In this document: in pieces, positions 31,301-54,330 of the stretch
How the letters are laid out: the number at the start of each line of letters is the position of its first letter
How positions within the stretch are numbered: position 1 is the first letter of the stretch
NCBI RefSeq assembly: GCF_017894385.1
Contig: NZ_CP059560.1
Location: forward strand, 4,410,501-4,474,500
DNA: 64,000 nt
DNA from: Aromatoleum petrolei
GTDB taxonomy: Bacteria > Pseudomonadota > Gammaproteobacteria > Burkholderiales > Rhodocyclaceae
Direction: 5' to 3'
Notes under the pieces: generated by a model
The model's database searches: none
Told to the model about the DNA's origin: nothing
Seen by the model: the letters and a program-made list of their open reading frames with translations, nothing else
Translations under genes and position numbers: made by a program

Positions 31301-32923
31301 TCACGCCGCGTTCTCGAACAGCTCCGGCGGGATGTCCTCGGGGCACAGCTGGCCGGCCTCGTCGCCCATCAGGGCGAGCATGAGGCGGAGCTGGTTGCGC
31401 AGTTCGCGCAGGTTGCCGGGCCAGCGGTGGCGATGCAGCAGCGCGAGTGCGTCCGGGCAGACGTAGATCTGCCGCCCGCCGGCGGCTTCGCGCACGAAGT
31501 GGCGCACGAGCGCGTCGAAATCCTGGCGTTCGCGCAGGGGCGGCAGGCTGATGATCCGGCCGTCCGCAGCCTCGAAGGTGCGCAAGTCGAGCCGGCCCTC
31601 GCGGCGCAGCTCGACGAGCGGCCGCCTTGCGGCGCCGATCACGCGTGCGCGGCTGCCGTCGTGGGCGTCGAAGAGCCGAGCCTGCAGAGTTGTCGGCAGG
31701 GCGTCGATTTCCACGAGGAACAGGATGCCGTTGGCCGCCTGCGTCCAGGCGCGATCGAGTTCGGCTTCCGCCGCCTCGCCTTGCGGCAGGGTCGTGCAGT
31801 CGATGCCGAGCAGCGGCGCGTCGGCGGTCGGCCGGTGGTCTTCATGGAAAGCGCGCACGAGATGCGCCTTGCCGGTTCCCATCTCCCCTTCGATCAGCAG
31901 TGGCGTCCTTTCCGTCGCGCAGTTGCGCAGCGTATCGACGATGCGCGCCATGCGTTCGTCGCCGTGAGCGATCGCACCCAGACGTGAGTCGTCGCGGCGG
32001 GCGGTTCCGGCGCGGGTGTCCATGTCGGCGCGGCGTTGCGAACGCAGGTTGGCGCGCGCGATGAATGTGCGTCCCTTCAGGTCGTAGAGCGGGAAGGGCG
32101 TGTCGGGCGCCTGCGCCGCCAACGCGACGAGGCTGCCCCAAGGCGTCGCGAAGCAGGCTTCGCAGGTCGTCGCGGGATGCCGCGCGTCCAGTCCGAGCAT
32201 GCTGCGTCCCTTGCGATTGCTCGCGACGAGCCGGCCGCCTTCGTCGAATACGACGAGGGCGTGCAGGGGATCCGAGAGCGCATCGCGGCGTGTGTGGAAG
32301 TGCAGCGTGAGGAAACCGTCGTCCAGCGTTTCGAGCAGGCGATGCTCGATCAGCTCCGCCGTGGTGCGCAGCAGTGCTTCGGCATGGGTCAGGTTCTCGC
32401 GTGCGTCCGACGACACGTCGAGGATGCCGAGCATGCCACCGGTTGGGGCGAGGATGGGGGTGGCGACGCAGGTCAGGATGCGGTTGCGCGCGAGGTAATG
32501 CTGGTTGCCCTGAACGGTGACGACCGTGCCGGTGTGCAGCGCCGTGCCGATCGCGTTGGTGCCCATCACGGCCTCGCTCCAGTCGACGCCGGGCCGCAGC
32601 GCAACCCGGCTGGCGCGGTCGAGAAAGTCGGTGTGGCCCAGCGCGCTGAGGATCATGCCCTGGCGATCGGCCAGCAGCACCGTGGAGGACGGGCTGCCGA
32701 TCTGGCGGTACAGGCCTTCGATCATCGGGCGGGAGAAGGCGAGCAGGCGGTTGTTCGCCGCGATGCGGTCCGTGAGCTCTCCCGGCGCCAGCGCCGTGTC
32801 ATTGAGCGGTTCGTCCGGCCGCAGCCCGTGCTCGCGGCTGCGCTGCCACGATGCGATGAGCGATTCCGGCCGGGAGGTCGGGGGTGAAGCTTCCATCATG
32901 CGGTGCGATGAAGCATGAATCAT
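31301..32923 (-). CDS. Degenerate AcoR-like regulator lacking sigma-54 contact loop and HTH
   Basis: About 540 residues with the layout of AcoR: start ESLIASWQRSREHGL, GAF domain with SEAVMGTNAIGTALHTG, PAS-like segment, then an AAA+ domain. The AAA+ part is damaged. Walker A is GEMGTGKAH, Walker B reads GILFLVEID where active relatives have LFLDEIG, and about 16 residues including the whole GAFTGA loop are missing between EAELD and TQAANG. The protein ends after the AAA+ lid (CPEDIPPELFENAA) with no Fis-type helix-turn-helix. It therefore should neither remodel sigma-54 nor bind DNA in the usual way. It is divergent from exaC. ATG 32923 or the ATGs at 32899/32896 may be the start. Confidence 0.8.
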   Translation of the reverse strand: MIHASSHRMMEASPPTSRPESLIASWQRSREHGLRPDEPLNDTALAPGELTDRIAANNRLLAFSRPMIEGLYRQIGSPSSTVLLADRQGMILSALGHTDFLDRASRVALRPGVDWSEAVMGTNAIGTALHTGTVVTVQGNQHYLARNRILTCVATPILAPTGGMLGILDVSSDARENLTHAEALLRTTAELIEHRLLETLDDGFLTLHFHTRRDALSDPLHALVVFDEGGRLVASNRKGRSMLGLDARHPATTCEACFATPWGSLVALAAQAPDTPFPLYDLKGRTFIARANLRSQRRADMDTRAGTARRDDSRLGAIAHGDERMARIVDTLRNCATERTPLLIEGEMGTGKAHLVRAFHEDHRPTADAPLLGIDCTTLPQGEAAEAELDRAWTQAANGILFLVEIDALPTTLQARLFDAHDGSRARVIGAARRPLVELRREGRLDLRTFEAADGRIISLPPLRERQDFDALVRHFVREAAGGRQIYVCPDALALLHRHRWPGNLRELRNQLRLMLALMGDEAGQLCPEDIPPELFENAA

Positions 32924-32994
32924 TCCCCCTGATGTGGAACCCCTGCACCACGCGCGGCTATGCGGAGGCGAGGGCGTCGTCGAGTGGGCGCATC

Positions 32995-33030
32995 TGTCAC
33001 GCATTGGGACAGGTGTTGTCTTGTTGAGCA
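32995..33030. promoter_or_regulatory. Tandem activator sites upstream of exaC
   Basis: Two 17-base imperfect palindromes, TGTCACGCATTGGGACA (32995-33011) and TGTTGTCTTGTTGAGCA (33014-33030), are separated by 2 bases, so their centres are 19 bp apart. They lie about 115-150 bases upstream of the -24/-12 promoter of exaC, a normal enhancer distance for an AcoR-type activator. The same arrangement recurs at 35291 and 50590. Confidence 0.65.
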
Positions 33031-33143
33031 GCGGAGGACAGGGGCAGGTACGCACGTGAAGCGTCGCCAGAAATTCCGGTATTGATGCGCAAGTGTCTGT
33101 GCACAAAATGAAATCCGCTTTGGCCGTGAATATTCGACAGGAC

Positions 33144-33158
33144 TGGCACGGCCCCTGC
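33144..33158 (+). promoter_or_regulatory. Sigma-54 promoter of exaC
   Basis: TGGCACGGCCCCTGC has the -24 GG at 33145-33146 and the -12 GC at 33157-33158 with exactly 10 bases between, matching TGGCACG-N4-TTGC except for one base in the -12 box. It is 61 bases before the exaC start codon. Confidence 0.8.
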
Positions 33159-33218: not shown

Positions 33219-34739
<1,521 letters not shown>

Positions 34740-34921: not shown

Positions 34922-35278
34922 ATGGTCCAGCGTGTCATCGCCACCGAAAGTGCCGAAGAACTCATCGCGCGTCTCATCGTGAAGCACGGCCCGGTGATGT
35001 TCCACCAGTCGGGCGGCTGCTGCGACGGCAGCGCGCCGATGTGTTATCTGCGCGCGGAGTTCCTGACCGGCCCCTCGGACGTCCTGCTCGGGGAAATCGG
35101 CGGCAGCCCCTTCTACATCAGCCGCGCGCAGTATGAGTACTGGAAGCACACCCAGTTGATCATCGACGTCGTCGACGGCCATGGCGGGATGTTCTCGCTG
35201 GAGGGCACAGAGGGCCTCGCCTTTTTTACGAGGTCACGGCTGTTCACCGACGAAGAACTGCGCGAGCTGCATCGCTGA
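34922..35278 (+). CDS. DUF779 protein, aldehyde dehydrogenase partner
   Basis: A 118-residue DUF779 family protein; the family nearly always sits beside ExaC/AldB aldehyde dehydrogenases. Seen: FHQSGGCCDGSAPMCY with three cysteines near residues 31-42, likely a metal or redox site, and ISRAQYEYWKHTQLIIDVVDG. Role unproven. GGAGTCAGTC precedes the ATG. A strong terminator separates it from exaC, so it depends on read-through or its own promoter. Confidence 0.88.
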   Translation: MVQRVIATESAEELIARLIVKHGPVMFHQSGGCCDGSAPMCYLRAEFLTGPSDVLLGEIGGSPFYISRAQYEYWKHTQLIIDVVDGHGGMFSLEGTEGLAFFTRSRLFTDEELRELHR

Positions 35279-35290
35279 TGCCGGCTGATG

Positions 35291-35326
35291 TGTTCCAATA
35301 TGGAGCAACTGTCACGCATTGGAGCG
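35291..35326. promoter_or_regulatory. Orphan tandem activator sites between convergent genes
   Basis: TGTTCCAATATGGAGCA (35291-35307) and TGTCACGCATTGGAGCG (35310-35326) repeat the 17-2-17 arrangement seen upstream of exaC; the second shares the 13 bases TGTCACGCATTGG with the exaC site. Here both flanking genes end, so no promoter is directly served. Confidence 0.6.
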
Positions 35327-35361
35327 TCTTGCCGCGCGACAATCTTCACAGGCCGGGCAGG

Positions 35362-37356
<1,995 letters not shown>

Positions 37357-37513
37357 CTCCTCCTCCTGACACTATTTTGTGTCTTGATGCGCTTCTCTCC
37401 GCCGCTAAGGAACAAGGCCCCCACGGCATGGCAAGTCCGTTCGATGATTATAGAGTGGTTTGGTAATCCTCTTCCAAACTCCCGAAGTACACGCGGCTTG
37501 TGCTTCCGATCGT

Positions 37514-38155
37514 TTAGATGACCCCCGCACGTACCGCGATCAAGACCAGTTCCGCGGCGTTCGATACATTCAGTTTCTGCTTGATGTGGTAGAGGTGTGT
37601 GCCCACAGTGCTCGAACTCAGACTGTGGCGTCTGGCGATTTCTCGCACGGAGGAGCCCCCAGCCAGTTCGAGAAATACGGCGAATTCGCGGTTGGTCAGG
37701 GCGTCGGCGGGATCTTCCGATCCGTCGTACTTGGACAGGGCAATCCGTGGCGCGAGTTCCTGATCGATATAGCGTTGTCCGCGGGCCACGACGGCGACCG
37801 CACGTCCGAGTTCCTGCGGATCTGCGCGTTTGGACAGATAACCGGTGGCGCCGGCCTTCAGCGCACGTGTGGGAATCTGAATGTCGTCGTGTGCTGACAG
37901 CATTAGCGTGCGGGCGTTCGGGAAATGCGAAAGCAAGCGCTCGAGTGCGCCTAGCCCGCCTATGCCGGGCATCCTGACATCCATGATGAGCACATCGGGG
38001 CGATGCTCGGAGTAGGCGACAAACGCCGCTTCCCCGCTCTCCGCCTCGGCGACGATTGTTGCGCCAAATCCTTCGAGCAGCATGCGAAAACCGGTTCGTA
38101 CCAGCGGGTGATCGTCGGCGAGGGCGAGTCGAAGATGCTCAAGTGTAGAGCGCAT
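37514..38155 (-). CDS. NarL/FixJ-type response regulator (AgmR/ErbR-like)
   Basis: A 213-residue regulator: receiver domain at 1-125 with acidic pair DD in LALADDHPLVRTG, phospho-acceptor Asp in VLIMDVRMPG and Lys in GYLSKRAD; LuxR-type helix-turn-helix at 150-210 (LTNREFAVFLELAGGSSVREIARRHSLSSSTV). Response regulators of this type control PQQ-ethanol oxidation in Pseudomonas, which fits the adjacent operon. No histidine kinase is encoded nearby. Confidence 0.9.
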   Translation of the reverse strand: MRSTLEHLRLALADDHPLVRTGFRMLLEGFGATIVAEAESGEAAFVAYSEHRPDVLIMDVRMPGIGGLGALERLLSHFPNARTLMLSAHDDIQIPTRALKAGATGYLSKRADPQELGRAVAVVARGQRYIDQELAPRIALSKYDGSEDPADALTNREFAVFLELAGGSSVREIARRHSLSSSTVGTHLYHIKQKLNVSNAAELVLIAVRAGVI

Positions 38156-38265
38156 CGCGAGTTTTCCTCCGAATGGTGGTGTAGGAGATTCCGCCGTCCG
38201 GGCCGTGCGATGTCACGCGCATGGCTCCGCCAGATCTCTGATGGACGTTCCGTCGATCCGGCTCG

Positions 38266-38299
38266 AAAAAAGCGATCGTGACGGCTGAGTCACGATCGC
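38266..38299 (-). terminator. Rho-independent terminator of the alcohol dehydrogenase operon
   Basis: On the minus strand a perfect 11-bp stem (GCGATCGTGAC and complement, 38272-38299) with a 6-base loop is followed by six T. It lies about 50 bases after the aldehyde dehydrogenase stop and ends the operon that begins near 43700. Confidence 0.92.
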
Positions 38300-38349
38300 A
38301 AGGAGAGGAGTCGAAGCGACTCCGTGGAGAGGGAGTGGGAGAGCGGGAG

Positions 38350-39789
38350 TTAGCCGTGCTGCATGTACACGACCTGCGTCTCCGTGTATTCGAGAAGTCC
38401 GTGCTTGCCGTCCGCTCCGCCGATGCCGGAATGCCGCCGGCCGGCGTGGAAGCCCTGCATCGCCTCGAAATGCTCGCGATTGACGTAGGTTTCGCCGAAC
38501 CGTAGTGAATTGCACGCCTGCATGGCCTTGTTCAGGTCGCGCGTGAAAATCGACGAAGTCAGGCCGTAGTCCGAGTCGTTGGCAAAGGCGATGGCTTCCT
38601 CGAGGTTATCGACGACCTGGATTGGCAGCACTGGCCCGAAAATCTCGTTGCGCATGATTTCCATATCGTGACGGCAGTTGACAATGACGGTGGGCAGGTA
38701 GTGGTAGCCTTGCTCGGTGGGGGCCACATTCCCGCCGAGGATCGTTTCCGCCCCTTCTTCGCGAGCTCTTTGCACCATGGCCGCAACCTTCTCCAGGCCC
38801 TGACGGTTGACCAGCGGCCCCATGTCAATCGAGGTGTCCGCGATCGGATCGCCGTAGCGCACCGCGGCCATGCGGGAAGTGACCTTGTCGATGAATTCGT
38901 TCGCCACCGCGCGCTCGACGTAGACGCGCTCTGCGCAGTTGCATACCTGGCCGGTGTTGATGACACGGGAGTCGCAGATCGCCTTGGCGGCGAGATCGAT
39001 GTCGGCGCCGCCCAGAACGATCGCAGGGGCCTTGCCGCCGAGTTCGAGATTGACGCGGGTGAGGTTCCGCGATGCGGCGGTCATGATGCGCTTGCCGGTT
39101 TCGACGCTGCCGGTGAAGCTCACGAGGCCCACTTGCGGGTTGTCGGTGAGTTTTGCTCCCACACTCGCGCCGCGCCCGCCCACGAGGTTGAAGACGCCGG
39201 CCGGCAAATCGGTTTCGTTCACCAGGCGCGCGAATTCGAAGGCATTGATCGGCGTTTCTTCGCTTGGTTTGATCACGATGGTGTTGCCCGTGAGCAGGGC
39301 GGGAGCCATCTTGCGTGCTATCAGGAAGAACGGGAAGTTCCAGGGCAAGATGCCGACGGTGACGCCAATCGGGCGGCGCATGAGAAAGATGCTCTCGCCC
39401 GGACGATCGCTGGGGATGATTTCGCCCTCGATCCGGCGTGCCCACTCGGCCATGTAGTCGATGTAGTCGGCGGTGAAGTCCACCTCGACGCGCGCCAGGC
39501 CGAGCACCTTGCCCTGTTCGCGGGTGATGGTCTCGGCTAGGCATTCCTTTTCGGAGCGCAGTTTGGCAGCGATCGCGCGCAGATGCTTCGCACGCTCGAT
39601 GGCAGGCAGCTTCTCCCATGCAGGCTGGGCGTGGCGCGCGGCTGCCACCGCGTCATCGACCTGATCGGGCGATGCTTCCGGAACGCAGGCGAGAAGTTCG
39701 TCTGTCGCGGGGTTGCGGACCTCGATGAGCTCCTGGGAACCGTTCTCGACGAAGCGTCCGTCGATGTAATTCTGGTAGATCTTGGTCAT
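38350..39789 (-). CDS. aldA: Lactaldehyde/glycolaldehyde-type aldehyde dehydrogenase
   Basis: A 479-residue NAD(P)-dependent aldehyde dehydrogenase most like AldA. The catalytic Cys is in NTGQVCNCAERVYVE, the base Glu in LELGGKAPAIV, the cofactor loop in FTGSVETGKRIM. Its C-terminus (YTETQVVYMQHG) is typical of AldA. As the last gene of the PQQ alcohol dehydrogenase operon it should remove the aldehyde formed in the periplasm after uptake. The substrate range cannot be read from sequence. Confidence 0.9.
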   Translation of the reverse strand: MTKIYQNYIDGRFVENGSQELIEVRNPATDELLACVPEASPDQVDDAVAAARHAQPAWEKLPAIERAKHLRAIAAKLRSEKECLAETITREQGKVLGLARVEVDFTADYIDYMAEWARRIEGEIIPSDRPGESIFLMRRPIGVTVGILPWNFPFFLIARKMAPALLTGNTIVIKPSEETPINAFEFARLVNETDLPAGVFNLVGGRGASVGAKLTDNPQVGLVSFTGSVETGKRIMTAASRNLTRVNLELGGKAPAIVLGGADIDLAAKAICDSRVINTGQVCNCAERVYVERAVANEFIDKVTSRMAAVRYGDPIADTSIDMGPLVNRQGLEKVAAMVQRAREEGAETILGGNVAPTEQGYHYLPTVIVNCRHDMEIMRNEIFGPVLPIQVVDNLEEAIAFANDSDYGLTSSIFTRDLNKAMQACNSLRFGETYVNREHFEAMQGFHAGRRHSGIGGADGKHGLLEYTETQVVYMQHG

Positions 39790-39814
39790 AATCCTTCTCC
39801 TTGCAGGGTGGGGG

Positions 39815-40282
39815 TCAGGTAGTCCGAGCGAGGCGTTTTCCGGCGAATTCGGAGGCGAAACCGAACGCGACGCCGGCGATCCAGGTCAGCACGATGAAGG
39901 CGATGCTGACATCGACCTTTCCGCCTGATCCGAAAAACGATGCGGCGCCGAGGAAGGCCGCGGGCGTGTAGGCCAGCGGGGCGATGTCGGCCATTGCGAC
40001 CAGCACGAAGGCCAGAATACCGACGAGGATCACGAGGGCAGTGATGTCACCGCCCAAGGTACCCACGAAGAACAGCGTGATTGCCGTGAGTCCGATGCCC
40101 GCCAAGCCGGCGGCGACCGACTTGAGGGCGCCTTCCGTGCCACCGCCGGCGGCGAAGAACGCGGCCCAGGCAACGAAGCCTATCCAAGGGTTGAAGTGGA
40201 AGTCCGGATTGCCGACGCTGAGGTATACCCATACGGCGACCAGCGCCGCGATGCTCGATGCGAGTGCGTGCAAAAGCTTCAT
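39815..40282 (-). CDS. DUF1097-like membrane protein
   Basis: A 155-residue protein with about five hydrophobic helices (HALASSIAALVAVWVYLS, FVAWAAFFAAGG, LAGIGLTAITLFFVG, LVILVGILAFVLVAMADI, FIVLTWIAGVAFGF). It matches the general look of DUF1097 inner-membrane proteins, sometimes annotated as transport-related. ATG 40282 was chosen over the upstream frame start because it begins at the first helix. Cotranscribed with the alcohol oxidation genes; it might move an alcohol, aldehyde or acid. Confidence 0.75.
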   Translation of the reverse strand: MKLLHALASSIAALVAVWVYLSVGNPDFHFNPWIGFVAWAAFFAAGGGTEGALKSVAAGLAGIGLTAITLFFVGTLGGDITALVILVGILAFVLVAMADIAPLAYTPAAFLGAASFFGSGGKVDVSIAFIVLTWIAGVAFGFASEFAGKRLARTT

Positions 40283-40348
40283 GTATTTCTCCCGAAGCGG
40301 GGTAAGGGGGCTCATCCGGCGCGACCGGCGGACGGGCGCGCCGGGCGC

Positions 40349-41209
40349 TTACCAGACGTACGCGTACTTGAGGTTCACGCTGTTGTTGAACGAGTGGTTC
40401 TCGCCTTCGATGCTCTTCGAATAGCGCAGCGTGATCGACTGGTTGTCGAAGGTGTGGAACATCAGACCCACACCTGCATCGAGCGCGTGCGAGCTGTCGA
40501 CCGTGCTGCTCTTCCTGCTGCGCTCGTAGTCCACCGCGACGAAGGGTTCGAGCAGCCCATTGACGCGATAGCCGAGACGATGATTGGTGTGGAAGGTGGT
40601 GCCGGGGCGCGAGCCATCCTTCTTCTCGTTCTGGAAGACGAACCCCGCGTCGGCCGTCCACCCCAGCTTGTCGGTGAGGCGCACGTCCCACAGCAGGCTG
40701 GAAAGGTTCTTCCAGTTGCTGTCACTCACGCTGTCGTTGCCCACGGGAATCTGGACAAAGGACTGGAAGCCCAGCGTCGACGAGGGAGTCGGTTTGTACC
40801 AGATCGCGAAGCCCGTCAGCGGGTCGCCGATACCGCTCACCTGGCTGGAGGTGCTGCGATCCTTGACGCCGATCTCGGGGACGATCACCTCGTAGGCGAG
40901 GCCGATCGAGGGGTTTGATTCGGGGGTCCAGAAGCGTACGTACTTCGACAGGCCGACCGTGGTGTTTGCGCCGGAGCCCTTGACGCGATCGCCGTCGTCG
41001 TCGAACGCCTTGTTGTTGCGCTGGACGTAAGCGTACTGGACGAACACGTTGAACGGCTTGAAGCCGACCGGCAGTTCGTATTCATGCGGGCCGATGACGT
41101 CGAAGGTCGTCTGGGCCTGTGCAGGAGCGATGGGGCCGCACAATGCGGCCATGGCGGCAAGGATGGCGAGTGAGGTTTTCTTCGGTGCGGCGAGCGTGAA
41201 TTGAGACAT
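40349..41209 (-). CDS. Outer-membrane transport protein (phenol MetA-pathway family)
   Basis: A 286-residue exported protein: signal peptide (KKTSLAILAAMAALCGPIAPAQAQ) then alternating beta strands ending in an aromatic residue (LKYAYVW), the pattern of an outer-membrane barrel. It resembles the Phenol_MetA_deg/transporter family found in aromatic and alcohol catabolic operons. Likely lets the alcohol substrate cross the outer membrane (inference). ATG 41209 directly precedes the signal peptide. Confidence 0.8.
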   Translation of the reverse strand: MSQFTLAAPKKTSLAILAAMAALCGPIAPAQAQTTFDVIGPHEYELPVGFKPFNVFVQYAYVQRNNKAFDDDGDRVKGSGANTTVGLSKYVRFWTPESNPSIGLAYEVIVPEIGVKDRSTSSQVSGIGDPLTGFAIWYKPTPSSTLGFQSFVQIPVGNDSVSDSNWKNLSSLLWDVRLTDKLGWTADAGFVFQNEKKDGSRPGTTFHTNHRLGYRVNGLLEPFVAVDYERSRKSSTVDSSHALDAGVGLMFHTFDNQSITLRYSKSIEGENHSFNNSVNLKYAYVW

Positions 41210-41299
41210 GTCGTTTCCTTGTTTCGAATCTTCGGGACAAATAGGCCCCCGCGCGGTGCCATGTGGCACCGCGTCGAGAAAAGCCGATTACGGTGAGGG

Positions 41300-43018
41300 C
41301 TACTGTTCGAGCTTGAAGACCATCAGCACGCCCCCTTGCGGGACGACGGTCTTGTGCGGAAGCACTGCGTCGAATGCGCCCTGCATGCGTTGGGCATCCA
41401 CGCCCCAACCGGACTGGACGGCAACGAATTGTTCGCCATCGATCTCGAAGGTCGATGGCACGCCCGTCACGCCCGAGTTGGTGGGGAATTCCCACAGGAG
41501 CTTGCCGTTCGTCGCGTCGAATGCGCGGAACTTGCGGTCATTGGTGCCCCCGCCGAAGACGAGGTTGCCGCCGGTGGTGAGCAGTGGCCCCCAGTTCATT
41601 TCGGGGTACGTGTGTGTCCACACCTTCTTGCCGGTCTTTATGTCCCAAGCCTGCACTTCGCCGACGTGCTTGCGCGCCTTATCGTCCATGCGGACGTTTG
41701 TCAGAATGTTGTCGATCGAAACCCCGATATAGAGCTCGCCGGCGTTGTACTTTGCCGGCTCGCCCGTCAGTTCCGAGCACAGGTTATTGTTGGCCGGGAT
41801 GTAGAGAAGGCCGGTGCCGGGGTTGTACGCCTCGGGCGGCCAGTCCTTGCCGCCCCACAGCGACGGGCAGAAATTGACGGTTTTTCCGGTGCCCGGGGTG
41901 CGCGCGGGATCGTAGGTCGGGCGGCCGGTCTTTGGGTCGATGCTCTTGAAGACGTTCTGGGTCACGTACGGCCAGGCATCGACAAAATTGATCTTGCTGT
42001 TGGTGCGCTCGAGTAGCCAGAGGTAGCCGTTGCGGCCGGCGTGCACCAGGGACTTGATCTTCTTGCCGTTACGCTCCACGTCGATCAGCAATGGCGCGGA
42101 AACCTCGTCCCAGTCCCAACCGTCATTCCAGTGATACTGGTGGTAGCCCTTGAGCTTACCGGTATCGACGTCGAGTGCGATCGTCGAATTCGCGTAAAGA
42201 TTGTCGCCAGCGCGGGTGTCGGGCATCCATGGCCCGGCATTCCCCACGCCCCAGTAGGCGAGGTTCGTATCGGGATCGTAGCTGCCGGTAATCCACACCG
42301 AGCCGCCGCCGCGCTTGTACGTGTCGGCCGGCCAAGTGTCACCGCCGGGTTCGCCGGGACCCGCGACGGTATGGGTGCGCCATGCCTCTTTCCCGGTTTC
42401 CGCGTCGAACGCGGCGACGAAGCCCCGGATGCCGTATTCGCCGCCCGAGGAGCCGACCATGATCTTGCCCTTGGCGGCCAGGGGCGCGAGAGTCATGTAA
42501 TAGCCCTTCTTCCAGTCCGCGACCGCGGTCTTCCACAATTCCTTGCCCGTCACCGCATCGAGTGCGACGAGGGTGGCGTCGGTGGTCGCGAGGTAGAGCT
42601 TGTTGCCGTAGAGCGCGACGCCGCGATTGGTCGGGTGGAGCTGCTGCAGCTCTTCCGGGATCGTCTTCTTGTACCGCCACAGTTCCTTGCCCGTGGCCGC
42701 CTCGAAAGCGATCACCTGGTTGTTCGGCGTCGTGATGTACATGTAGCCGTTGTTCACGATCGGGGGCGACTGGTGGCCTTCAGTCATGCCCGTGGAGTAA
42801 GCCCAGGCGAGCTTCAGCTTTGCGACGTTTTGCGTGTTGATCTGCTTGAGCGAACTGTAACCCCAGCTCGCGTAGTTGCCGCGGTAGGAAAGCCAGTTCT
42901 GCGGCTCCGGGTTGGCGAGCCGAATGTCAGTGACAGGGGCGTACTGCGGCAGCGCTGCCGTGGCGAGCAGCGGTGTGAGCGCGAGCGCGGCGACCAGCGG
43001 TCTGATTTTATTTTTCAT
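41300..43018 (-). CDS. PQQ-dependent alcohol dehydrogenase (quinoprotein, ExaA-like)
   Basis: A 572-residue periplasmic quinoprotein with signal peptide (KNKIRPLVAALALTPLLATA) and repeated beta-propeller W motifs (DAVTGKELWKTAV, DAETGKEAWRTH, DATNGKLLWEFP). It oxidises alcohols to aldehydes with PQQ. Two points are odd. The vicinal Cys-Cys that precedes the conserved NRG in methanol/ethanol dehydrogenases is absent (sequence ELQQLHPTNRGVALYG). The active-site region reads NDGWDWDEV, with Asp two residues after the catalytic Asp, as in lanthanide-dependent enzymes. No cytochrome domain is fused. No PQQ synthesis genes are in the window. Confidence 0.92.
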   Translation of the reverse strand: MKNKIRPLVAALALTPLLATAALPQYAPVTDIRLANPEPQNWLSYRGNYASWGYSSLKQINTQNVAKLKLAWAYSTGMTEGHQSPPIVNNGYMYITTPNNQVIAFEAATGKELWRYKKTIPEELQQLHPTNRGVALYGNKLYLATTDATLVALDAVTGKELWKTAVADWKKGYYMTLAPLAAKGKIMVGSSGGEYGIRGFVAAFDAETGKEAWRTHTVAGPGEPGGDTWPADTYKRGGGSVWITGSYDPDTNLAYWGVGNAGPWMPDTRAGDNLYANSTIALDVDTGKLKGYHQYHWNDGWDWDEVSAPLLIDVERNGKKIKSLVHAGRNGYLWLLERTNSKINFVDAWPYVTQNVFKSIDPKTGRPTYDPARTPGTGKTVNFCPSLWGGKDWPPEAYNPGTGLLYIPANNNLCSELTGEPAKYNAGELYIGVSIDNILTNVRMDDKARKHVGEVQAWDIKTGKKVWTHTYPEMNWGPLLTTGGNLVFGGGTNDRKFRAFDATNGKLLWEFPTNSGVTGVPSTFEIDGEQFVAVQSGWGVDAQRMQGAFDAVLPHKTVVPQGGVLMVFKLEQ

Positions 43019-43059
43019 GTGACTCCTCCTTAACGGGTTGTTGCGGGTGGGTGGGGAAT

Positions 43060-43662
43060 TCAACCGGCGGTGGCGCCGGGTTTGGACGAGAACTTGCCGG
43101 CAACGACGAGGCGCCCGTTTTCGGCCTTGAGGGGCAGCACGGGGAGCCGCCGCGGAGCCGGCCCCCCGATGACTTCTCCTCCGTGCGTAGGTTTGAACTG
43201 GGAAAAGTGGCAAAAGCAGATCAGTGCGTTGTCCTTGGGGACGTAATTGGTGATGTCGCAGCCCTGATGCGTGCACACCGCCGAATAGGCGACGATGCCC
43301 TCGACGGAATTCCGGCGCATGTCTTCGTCAATTTCCTCAGGTTGTACGCGGAAGACGATGACCTTGTTGAGGCGGGAACCACTCTTGATCGCGCCGCTGG
43401 CGGGTTCGAGCGGAAAGGCTAGAATCGGTTTGTCACCGACTGCCAAGTCGCTGATGGTCAGTGGTTGAGTGCCGCCCTCGGCGTCTGTACGTACGAGAAA
43501 ATCCCCGATTTCCGGGCGCGCATCGCTGATTTCCCCTGCGTGCGTGCGATGTGCGGAAGCGGCGGCAAGGCCGAGAAGGGCGCCAGTGCAAATTTTGAGG
43601 GCCGAGCGCCGACCGGGATCTTTCGGTTTGCTGCAGTTACAGCAAGATGAGTCCGTTTTCAT
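43060..43662 (-). CDS. Tat-exported Rieske [2Fe-2S] protein
   Basis: A 200-residue protein starting with a Cys-rich SCCNCSKP, then a twin-arginine signal (GRRSALKICTGALLGLAAASA). The Rieske domain has both cluster motifs, CTHQGC and CFCHFSQF. It is the first gene of the alcohol dehydrogenase operon, 41 bases before the quinoprotein. Rieske proteins carry one electron at high potential, so it may accept electrons from the quinoprotein or protect the site; this is inference. ATG 43662 agrees with the -24/-12 promoter at 43712-43727. Confidence 0.88.
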   Translation of the reverse strand: MKTDSSCCNCSKPKDPGRRSALKICTGALLGLAAASAHRTHAGEISDARPEIGDFLVRTDAEGGTQPLTISDLAVGDKPILAFPLEPASGAIKSGSRLNKVIVFRVQPEEIDEDMRRNSVEGIVAYSAVCTHQGCDITNYVPKDNALICFCHFSQFKPTHGGEVIGGPAPRRLPVLPLKAENGRLVVAGKFSSKPGATAG

Positions 43663-43711
43663 TTGCACTGATGTCTCCGTTTTTTTACTGGTGATGCGAC
43701 TGGGCCGGTAG

Positions 43712-43727
43712 TGCAAAGCTCGGGCCA
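43712..43727 (-). promoter_or_regulatory. Sigma-54 promoter of the Rieske/alcohol dehydrogenase operon
   Basis: On the minus strand TGGCCCGAGCTTTGCA matches TGGCACG-N4-TTGCA with one change; GG and GC are separated by exactly 10 bases. It lies 50 bases before the Rieske start codon. Confidence 0.82.
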
Positions 43728-50581: not shown

Positions 50582-50589
50582 TCACGACC

Positions 50590-50625
50590 TGTCCCGCCGT
50601 GGGACAGGTGCTCCAAAACGGAACA
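50590..50625. promoter_or_regulatory. Orphan tandem activator sites after pedC
   Basis: TGTCCCGCCGTGGGACA (50590-50606, a perfect palindrome outside the 5-base centre) and TGCTCCAAAACGGAACA (50609-50625) show the same 17-2-17 arrangement as upstream of exaC. They lie between two converging genes. Confidence 0.65.
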
Positions 50626-50640
50626 CCGTGACAAAAAAAG

Positions 50641-52150: not shown

Positions 52151-52269
52151 CCTCTGTTGTTGCCCGGTTCGATGAGCGATTGCTTCGACCTGGTGCAGGT
52201 GCTACTTTCTGACACAAGGGACAAACAAAAAAATAGTCCCAAAAGTGACGCGCAGGAGAGGAGGAGAAG

Positions 52270-54330
52270 ATGGCCGTATTGCCGCAGTTGCGGGATCGCC
52301 GCGAGAACACCATTTCGGACGCGCGACGATTTTTCTTCGAGCTTGGCCAGACGCCGGAGACCGGGCTCGCCCCTCCTGTGCTGCGTTCCTGGCAGCGCTG
52401 CCGCACTGGCGGCCTCGACCACCTGGATGCCTACCTGATCGATCCTGCAGGCCGCGCCCAGCTCTCCGACGCGCGCGATCGCAGCGCGAGGCTGCTGGAG
52501 CACGCCGGCGGGATCATGGAGCACGTGTTCGAGCAGATCCGCGCTTCGGGCAGCATGGTCATCCTCGCCGACACGCGGGGCATGATCCTGCACTGCCTCG
52601 GCGATCCGGACTTCGTCGGCCGCGCGCAACGTGTCGCCCTGCAACCCGGCGCGTCGTGGGACGAGACCGTCCGCGGCACCAACGCGATCGGCACCGCAAT
52701 CCAGGAAGGCGCCGCGGTCGAGATCCACGGTGCGGAGCACTACCTGGAACGCAACGGTTTTTTGACCTGCAGTGCCGCGCCGGTGTTCAACGCCCTGGGG
52801 CACATCGCCGGCGTGCTCGACATTTCGGGTGACTCGCGCAACAACCAGCGCCATACGCTCGGTCTGGTGCGCCTGTCGGTGCAACTGCTGGAAAAACGCC
52901 TCTTCGAGGCCGAGTTCGCCAAAGAAATCCGCATCGCCTTCCATCCCCGCCCCGAATACGTCGGCAGCCTGCAGGAAGCGATGCTTGCGGTCGATGCCGA
53001 CGGCAGGGTCGTCGGCGCCAACCCGGTCGCGCGCGAATGGTTGGCCCTTCCCGCCGGGCTCGCCGACGCGCCGACTTTCGGCAGCCTGTTCCGTACGGGC
53101 TTCGGTCAGCTGCTCGACCGCGCCGCGAATGCCCCCGACGACCTGCTGCTGCTCGAGATGCGGCGCGGCGAAGCGGTCTACGTGCAAGTGCGTGGCCATC
53201 GCCGCCCGCGCGCCGAAGTCCCTGCACCGCGACTGCAGCAGTCCGCGGCAGAGACGCCAAGGCAGGGGGGCAAACCCTGTGACCGCTCGAAGTCGCAGAT
53301 CACGCTCGATTGCCTCGCGACCGGTGACGCCCGGCTGCAACTCGCCCTCGACCGTGCGCGACGCGTGCAGGGCAAGGACATCCCGCTGCTGATCCAGGGC
53401 GAGTCGGGCGTCGGCAAGGAGCTCTTCGCACGCGCCTTCCACAATAGCGGTGCACGCAGCGACGGCCCCTTCGTCGCGTTGAACTGCGCGGCGATTCCGG
53501 AAAATCTCATCGAATCGGAACTCTTCGGCTATGTCGGCGGCTCCTTCACCGGCGCGCGGCGCGAGGGGGCGGTCGGCAAACTGCAGCAGGCCCACGGAGG
53601 TACTCTGTTCCTCGACGAGATCGGCGACATGCCGCTGGGCATGCAGGCGCGCCTGCTGCGTGTGCTGCAGGAGCGCAGCGTCACGCCGATCGGCTCAATG
53701 AAATCGATTCCCGTCGATATCTCCCTTGTCTGCGCCACCCACCGTGTGCTGCGCGACGCCGTCAGGCAGGGCCTGTTCCGCGAAGATCTCTACTACAGGG
53801 TGAATAGCCTTACCGTAACGCTGCCGCCGCTGCGCGAGCGCACCGACATCCGCCACATCGTCACCAACCTCCTCGAGATGGAAGCTGCGGACCGCAACAG
53901 CGGCCCGATCGGTATCAGTGAGGAGGTCATGGACTTTTTCGAACGCTACCCGTGGCCGGGCAACGTCCGTCAGCTCCAGAACGTCATCCGGGTGGCGGTC
54001 GCGCTGCTCGACGACAACGAGCACGAGATCGCCTCGGTACATCTGCCGGAGGAGCTCTTCGGCATCGACGGCGGCGACGATGTCGCGGAGGCGCTTGCCC
54101 GGCCGGCGGTCGTCACGGCACAGGCGGTCGCCTCGCCGTTCGCCGCTGCGCTGCCGGCGGCGATTGCGCCGCAGGCAGCCGCTGCGAGCGCGCCGCGCAG
54201 CCTCGATGAAATCGAACTCGAAGCGATCACCACCGTGATGCGCGAGGTGGGCGGAAACGTCTCTGCCGCCGCGCGCAGACTGGGCGTCAGCCGCAATACC
54301 CTTTACCGCAAATTGGGCAAGTTGAACTGA
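52270..54330 (+). CDS. Sigma-54-dependent activator of the aor region, AcoR-like
   Basis: A 686-residue enhancer-binding protein: start FELGQTPETGLAPPVLRSWQRC, GAF domain with SWDETVRGTNAIGTAIQEG, PAS-like part, AAA+ domain with GESGVGKE, GYVGGSFTGA (Ser in place of the usual Ala of the sigma-54 loop), GGTLFLDEIGD, and a Fis-type helix-turn-helix at the end (NVSAAARRLGVSRNTLYRKL). It stands between the pedF unit and aor operon, both with sigma-54 promoters, and is the natural activator of aor. Effector likely an aldehyde or alcohol (inference). Confidence 0.92.
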   Translation: MAVLPQLRDRRENTISDARRFFFELGQTPETGLAPPVLRSWQRCRTGGLDHLDAYLIDPAGRAQLSDARDRSARLLEHAGGIMEHVFEQIRASGSMVILADTRGMILHCLGDPDFVGRAQRVALQPGASWDETVRGTNAIGTAIQEGAAVEIHGAEHYLERNGFLTCSAAPVFNALGHIAGVLDISGDSRNNQRHTLGLVRLSVQLLEKRLFEAEFAKEIRIAFHPRPEYVGSLQEAMLAVDADGRVVGANPVAREWLALPAGLADAPTFGSLFRTGFGQLLDRAANAPDDLLLLEMRRGEAVYVQVRGHRRPRAEVPAPRLQQSAAETPRQGGKPCDRSKSQITLDCLATGDARLQLALDRARRVQGKDIPLLIQGESGVGKELFARAFHNSGARSDGPFVALNCAAIPENLIESELFGYVGGSFTGARREGAVGKLQQAHGGTLFLDEIGDMPLGMQARLLRVLQERSVTPIGSMKSIPVDISLVCATHRVLRDAVRQGLFREDLYYRVNSLTVTLPPLRERTDIRHIVTNLLEMEAADRNSGPIGISEEVMDFFERYPWPGNVRQLQNVIRVAVALLDDNEHEIASVHLPEELFGIDGGDDVAEALARPAVVTAQAVASPFAAALPAAIAPQAAAASAPRSLDEIELEAITTVMREVGGNVSAAARRLGVSRNTLYRKLGKLN

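Follow-up and report, generated by a model that had tools for sequence, protein, structure and literature searches.

The 64,000-nt window analysed here (Aromatoleum petrolei, NZ_CP059560.1, positions 4,410,501-4,474,500, forward strand) encodes, at 31301-32923 on the minus strand, an AcoR-like protein with a GAF-PAS-like sensor and a hollowed AAA+ domain that lacks a helix-turn-helix (HTH). We refer to this protein, together with the relatives that share its losses, as SHORT. SHORT proteins form a single clade, are under purifying selection, and are mostly encoded divergently from exaC, an acetaldehyde dehydrogenase gene, in the same place in which an intact sigma54 activator is found in other genomes. 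We propose that SHORT is a former activator of exaC that now reads a ligand and acts on AcoR2, an intact paralogue that would itself drive exaC; we give this reading about an even chance. All coordinates below are those of the window.

The frame, described in a first-pass annotation as intact over 540 codons from 32923, is real, and its start is probably at 32899 (532 codons), since the closest relatives start at residue 9 (MMEASPP, 532 residues); the gene is thus probably 31301-32899. Pfam matches comprise Sigma54_activat (50 bits), AAA_lid_14 (48 bits), and GAF (46 bits), with no HTH match, and the protein ends right after the AAA+ lid, before any DNA-binding domain, as had been claimed. The GAF sensor region (residues 20-200; 32324-32866, minus strand, as are all SHORT features) is under the strongest constraint. 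In a structure model built with 75 of 121 aligned rows it is predicted to adopt a DhaR-like fold, the match being limited to residues ~19-203. The middle region (residues 201-310; 31994-32323) has the highest omega (ratio of nonsynonymous to synonymous substitution rates) of the four SHORT parts; no PAS domain was matched by Pfam after the GAF domain in the window protein, and its PAS likeness comes from the strand order of the predicted model only. The AAA+ fold of sigma54 activators and its lid are present. The AAA+ core (residues 315-462; 31538-31981) keeps Walker A (GEMGTGK, 31868-31888) and lacks the GAFTGA loop (L1, ~15 residues, missing at 31778-31783), and its Walker B position (31709-31714) is Val-Glu, not Asp-Glu. 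The line reads GILFLVEID, with LFLVEID in place of LFLDEIG as first noted: the Asp codon has become Val (31712-31714), and the next Glu is retained (31709-31711). Two losses had not been recorded before: the pre-sensor I loop (L2, ~13 residues, missing at 31646-31666) is also gone, and the switch Asn is Asp. The conserved lid (residues 463-538; 31310-31537; AAA_lid_14) is followed by the end of the protein two residues on.

To place these losses among relatives, the best 120 of 1288 matches in a protein search with SHORT were aligned with the query (121 rows) and divided by eye into 57 SHORT and 63 full-length proteins; P0056, a 306-residue fragment, was omitted from the motif counts and the tree. 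Orthologues with the same deletions, for which the first-pass annotation had suggested a search, are plentiful: all 57 proteins carry them and form one clade. GAFTGA or a variant is found in none of the 57 SHORT proteins and in all 63 full-length ones (61 with GAFTGA or GAYTGA, two ending in TSA), and coding sequences from genome loci divide in the same way (0/26 versus 18/18); on this alignment, the loss of the loop in SHORT is not due to chance. The L1 stretch measures 17-19 residues in 56 SHORT proteins and 10 in the other, versus 33 in 61/63 full-length proteins, and the L2 stretch 5-8 residues in all SHORT proteins versus 20 in all full-length ones (12-15 shorter). Walker A retains its Lys in 56/57 (Arg in the remaining one), whereas at Walker B the Asp is left in one SHORT protein and the Glu in 22, versus 62/63 for each in the full-length set, with one gap. 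The switch Asn is Asp in all 57, the sensor II Arg is retained in 25, and in the two columns of the arginine fingers Arg occurs in 0 and 4 SHORT proteins, respectively, versus 63/63 for each. Every SHORT protein has only 2-16 residues after the lid and is 511-581 residues in size. L1 and L2 are reported to be the two extra loops of sigma54 activators and possible agents of the power stroke on sigma54, and an Asn to be part of their nucleotide switch (PMC7175178); the parts that do the work on sigma54 have thus been lost together.

In a likelihood tree (quick mode, 121 rows: 57 SHORT, 63 full-length, AcoR2), SHORT proteins make up one side of a single branch with a Shimodaira-Hasegawa-like approximate likelihood ratio test (SH-aLRT) value of 100, and by this topology the conversion happened once. 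It probably predates the split of the Aromatoleum/Azoarcus/Thauera-type lineages. Among these best 120 of 1288 matches, identity to the window protein falls to 41% within SHORT, and the nearest full-length proteins stand at ~42%. SHORT occurs in 23 of the 297 sampled genomes of the family and a close full-length relative in 28, a figure that rests on a score gap. It is present in 10 of 12 sampled genomes of its own genus and in five other genera, the named holders including Aromatoleum, Azoarcus, Thauera, and Parazoarcus; in a sample of 300 genomes of the order, a few of which belong to this family, no genome but that of the window reached E 1e-95. Two GAF positions differ between the groups: the full-length proteins have Ala64 and Arg93 (97% and 100% of 36), and SHORT proteins, once near-copies are removed, have Ser at both (100% and 96% of 45), which may reflect a changed ligand or signal path.

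Estimates of selection rest on the coding sequences of 26 SHORT and 18 full-length genes, without L040, which has one stop codon, and without L046, L047, L050, and L051, which come from the same genomes as other rows. Goldman-Yang (GY) omega for the GAF, middle, AAA, and lid parts was 0.055, 0.134, 0.125, and 0.085 in SHORT (n=26), 0.062, 0.115, 0.039, and 0.069 in full-length relatives (n=18), and 0.028, 0.123, 0.064, and 0.065 in the window's own genus group (n=11). Muse-Gaut (MG) values lay above these, with a maximum of 0.186. Pairwise Nei-Gojobori (NG86) medians, which include saturated pairs, were larger: the domains of SHORT gave 0.28-0.56, and single pairs exceeded 1. Over the whole protein, the 14 closest pairs of SHORT sequences gave 0.10-0.26. 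The suggested check for purifying selection thus gave a clear answer, with GY omega of 0.028-0.134 by domain, far below 1. Amino-acid distances scaled to that of GAF are, for the AAA+ core, 2.07 in SHORT versus 0.68 in full-length relatives (ratio 3.03, 2.35-3.97), for the lid 0.90 versus 1.45 (ratio 0.62, 0.46-0.81), and for the middle region 1.77 versus 2.13 (ratio 0.83, 0.66-1.04), indicating that the core has been freed of part of its constraint and the sensor and lid have not. A lid much more constrained in SHORT than elsewhere is indicated by these distances but not by likelihood omega, and we claim only that the lid stays constrained.

The threefold faster core, relative to GAF, and the variable Walker B, sensor, and arginine-finger positions are what would be expected if SHORT were a functionless ex-activator in slow decay. 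However, GY omega is at most 0.134 in every domain, all 26 coding sequences are free of stops, and all 57 proteins keep to the narrow size range given above. An omega of 0.03-0.13 by domain indicates that SHORT is not decaying, and identities down to 41% indicate that it is old, which also counts against decay. We regard slow decay as highly improbable, and reject the pseudogene reading on the basis of omega and the intact frames.

SHORT mostly lies next to exaC. In the window, exaC lies at 33219-34739 on the plus strand (NCBIfam NF050026, 959.8 bits, cut-off 900; the ATG at 33219 was read from the sequence, and the query used in searches was taken from the 8th codon, 33240). A comparison with the window genes covered 46 loci. 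The window and 23 of the 26 fetched SHORT loci (L045-L051, L059-L077) have SHORT in divergent orientation to exaC; L071 and L073 are cut at a contig edge, and the double enhancer and sigma54 promoter described below are nonetheless there, and in L074 SHORT adjoins ATP-binding cassette (ABC) transporter genes, with the exaC of that genome on another contig. Of 20 full-length loci, 11 show the same divergent arrangement with exaC (L081, L082, L084, L090-L096, L098; some contig-cut); in the remaining nine, exaC was undetected and other cluster genes were detected. Recurring neighbours are a cytochrome, AcoR2, aor genes, and pyrroloquinoline quinone (PQQ) alcohol dehydrogenase-like genes. The shared divergent place makes the window gene a positional orthologue of a normal exaC activator, and, judging from these gene neighbourhoods, the activator was stripped in place. 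In Ralstonia, acoR Rsc3129 is listed as a predicted regulator whose target, Rsc3128, is the acetaldehyde dehydrogenase ExaC, and growth on ethanol is reported to have required rpoN1 (PMC4676750).

The exaC gene itself may have a separate history. The window copy is 98-99% identical to those of L045 (A. evansii), L050 (A. toluvorans), and L076 and 83% identical to those of the other Aromatoleum loci, whereas SHORT identities are 94, 85, and 85% in L045, L050, and L076 and 89-91% in L046-L049 and L077, where exaC is at 83%. A second exaC (83%) is present in the window's own genome at C1:203549-205045. SHORT identities do not track those of exaC, a gene that seems to have undergone recombinational exchange.

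Upstream of exaC, the elements that a sigma54 activator would use are retained. A predicted sigma54 promoter, TGGCACGGCCCCTGC, lies at 33144-33158 (plus strand), 75 nt upstream of the ATG, and a predicted double enhancer at 32994-33031 (plus strand) consists of two TGT-N11-ACA-like elements with the core GGGACA-N13-TGAGCA at 33006-33030. The pattern GGARCA-N13-KGARCA occurs with at most one mismatch, at a near-constant place, in 22 of 24 SHORT exaC upstream regions (23 genomes, since L051 and L075 are one genome and both were counted), and 0-2% of 50 shuffles match it. In L064 and L067, the only match to the pattern has three mismatches and lies elsewhere; a diverged copy of the enhancer can be made out by eye. 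Among 11 full-length exaC upstream regions, eight have at most one mismatch and three have two, a level that up to 12% of shuffles equal. In the SHORT loci shown, 107-113 nt separate the 38-nt enhancer from the promoter. In the 5.4-Mb genome of the window there are three sites with one mismatch and none with zero, all in the window: at exaC, at 35302-35326 after the DUF779 gene, and at 50590-50614. Matches to two or fewer mismatches, pooled, number 16+14 versus 16+11 for a reversed-pattern control (not divided by mismatch number), so only the strict matches carry meaning. A weaker copy (score 14.5) lies upstream of AcoR2 at 52180-52217. The two further double enhancers of the window, at 35290-35327 and 50589-50626, are nearly symmetric and have similar sites in several relatives; the promoter pattern found no convincing sigma54 promoter downstream of either.

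Two congeners that have neither SHORT nor AcoR2 (G100 and G276) also have no double enhancer in the 10-11 kb around exaC, with best scores of -2.6 and 1.1, respectively, versus 24.8-52 for the training sites. The exaC gene of G276 (L101 5999-7873) lies divergently to a different AcoR-like gene (40% to AcoR2); upstream of it a sigma54-like sequence can be seen, but not the double enhancer. That of G100 (L100 1534-4833) is preceded by two frames and by a third one that by eye resembles an AraC-type regulator, and no sigma54 promoter of the usual kind was seen upstream of it.

The kept promoter and enhancer leave a switch of exaC to a sigma70 promoter unsupported. Nevertheless, SHORT could conceivably be a DNA-binding regulator at sigma70 promoters: the Caulobacter NtrC is a family member that lacks GAFTGA, is reported to be functional all the same, and is said to work at sigma70 promoters (PMC12421884), so function after this loss has a precedent. 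That protein, however, has an HTH, whereas all 57 SHORT proteins stop within 16 residues of the lid and tblastn found no separate HTH at SHORT loci; with HTH tails as queries (>30 bits), it matched only AcoR2 places and, in the window, AcoR1. We therefore consider a sigma70 role extremely improbable.

If SHORT no longer activates exaC, another protein of the cluster may. The first-pass annotation had named two intact paralogues, at 35362 and 52270, as possible partners, and of the two only the second fits, as a candidate. AcoR2 (52270-54330, plus strand) has a GAF domain, a sigma54 domain, and an HTH, with the GSFTGA loop and LFLDEIG retained. At E 1e-120, it is found in all 23 SHORT genomes, in one of them split over two frames, and was not found in G100 or G276, in both of which exaC was found. 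At E 1e-170 or better, it is present in 50 of the 51 genomes with SHORT or a full-length relative, the exception being G253 (AcoR2 in two frames), versus 45 of the 246 without (Fisher p 7e-29, inflated by kinship and linkage). AcoR1 (35362), which has a match at E 1e-140 in only 6 of 25 genomes and at best 55% identity outside its own genome, is rejected as a general partner.

We suggest the following course of events. The old divergent activator of exaC would have become SHORT, able neither to bind DNA nor to contact the sigma54 polymerase, and AcoR2, from the same gene cluster, would now bind the old enhancers and drive exaC through sigma54. The GAF region of SHORT would sense a metabolite of alcohol or aldehyde oxidation, a ligand class suggested by the neighbouring genes, and SHORT would signal to AcoR2 through direct contact, likely by entering AcoR2 dimers or rings via its conserved sensor and lid. 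Contact with AcoR2 is the most economical account, because the parts for DNA and sigma54 are gone, the sensor, Walker A, and lid are kept, the promoter needs a sigma54 activator, and the cluster encodes one. With both loops gone, Walker B incomplete, and one arginine finger at most, SHORT would be expected to weaken AcoR2 rings unless ligand intervenes; a mixed ring might be blocked, with SHORT as an anti-activator, until ligand frees SHORT. In this form, SHORT proteins would be a conserved class of pseudo-enzymes among sigma54 activators: a disarmed activator would have become a ligand-gated blocker of the rings of its paralogue, at the promoter that it once served, turning two activators into an inhibitor and an activator. 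We offer this extension tentatively, and think it possible but rather doubtful.

Several observations weigh against an action of SHORT on AcoR2. The co-occurrence may be linkage, because AcoR2 is in the same cluster, and full-length relatives co-occur with AcoR2 too, so that SHORT has no exclusive tie to it. AcoR2 is split over two frames in one SHORT genome (G288), SHORT lies away from exaC in another (G095), and in G214, which has both SHORT and AcoR2, an exaC copy on another contig (L103) has no double enhancer (best score 4.3). The maximum-likelihood omega of the lid is not below that of full-length relatives (0.085 versus 0.069). Finally, R-x-D/E/A-L occurs near the first arginine-finger place in 16 of the 57 SHORT proteins, including that of the window (GRLDLR), and one arginine finger may therefore survive in these.

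In a further possibility, SHORT would dock by its GAF-PAS part on an enzyme of the alcohol pathway, the AAA+ remnant serving as a nucleotide-binding scaffold, and would act as a stand-alone sensor or enzyme regulator. By the titles of PDB entries 4lrx and 4lrz, DhaR docks on the enzymes DhaK and DhaL, which favours a protein partner for SHORT. Such docking leaves unexplained, however, both the tie to the AcoR2 cluster and the origin in place from the exaC activator, and the fold match spans only residues ~19-203; we consider it unlikely.

SHORT resembles the AcoR/DhaR-type GAF-PAS activators, including the full-length proteins divergent from exaC and the Ralstonia acoR Rsc3129, in sensor fold, AAA+ domain, lid, and exaC neighbourhood, and differs from them in lacking L1, L2, the Walker B Asp, the switch Asn, the conserved arginine fingers, and the HTH. 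In Azotobacter vinelandii, the paralogous GAF activators VnfA1 and VnfA3 share promoters, are reported to interact in two-hybrid and pull-down assays, and have been proposed to form hetero-oligomers; the same source names HrpR/HrpS, FleQ/FleT, and RedR1/RedR2 among paralogues for which interaction or mixed oligomers have been reported or proposed (PMC9542535). Unlike SHORT, which has neither a DNA-binding domain nor the sigma54 loops, VnfA1 and VnfA3 both bind DNA and co-activate. FleT of Rhodobacter sphaeroides, a sigma54-family protein that works in complex with a paralogue, is described as having neither regulatory nor DNA-binding domains (PMC7175178); it lacks a sensor as well, whereas SHORT has a large one. 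Class III genes are reported to be activated by a FleQ-FleT complex (PMC7277832), and RedR1 and RedR2 of Azoarcus anaerobius to be co-dependent (PMC9542535). By analogy, SHORT might be a helper: a subunit that an AcoR2-SHORT activator needs, or is stimulated by, and that provides a second ligand input. We think this quite unlikely, as a protein without both sigma54 loops and without the conserved catalytic residues would hardly add work to a ring. In the part of the open-access literature that our searches covered, we found no account of SHORT or of an activator relative that lacks both GAFTGA and HTH.

SHORT is an old and well-sampled natural AAA+ activator that has lost its working parts and is yet under selection, while sister genera carry an intact version at that position. 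It allows one to ask which surfaces sigma54 activators need for contact with a paralogue rather than with the polymerase, and might prove to be a dominant-negative partner of natural origin. Its action would bear on the timing of ethanol and aldehyde oxidation in the bacteria that carry it.

Downstream of exaC, the window contains the DUF779 gene (34922-35278, plus strand) and then a segment at 35362-43716 that holds AcoR1, a response regulator, an aldehyde dehydrogenase, DUF1097, a PQQ dehydrogenase, and Rieske-type genes, before the ABC-transporter genes. This segment looks like an insertion, because in several relatives (such as L045, L049, and L050) the transporter genes directly follow DUF779.
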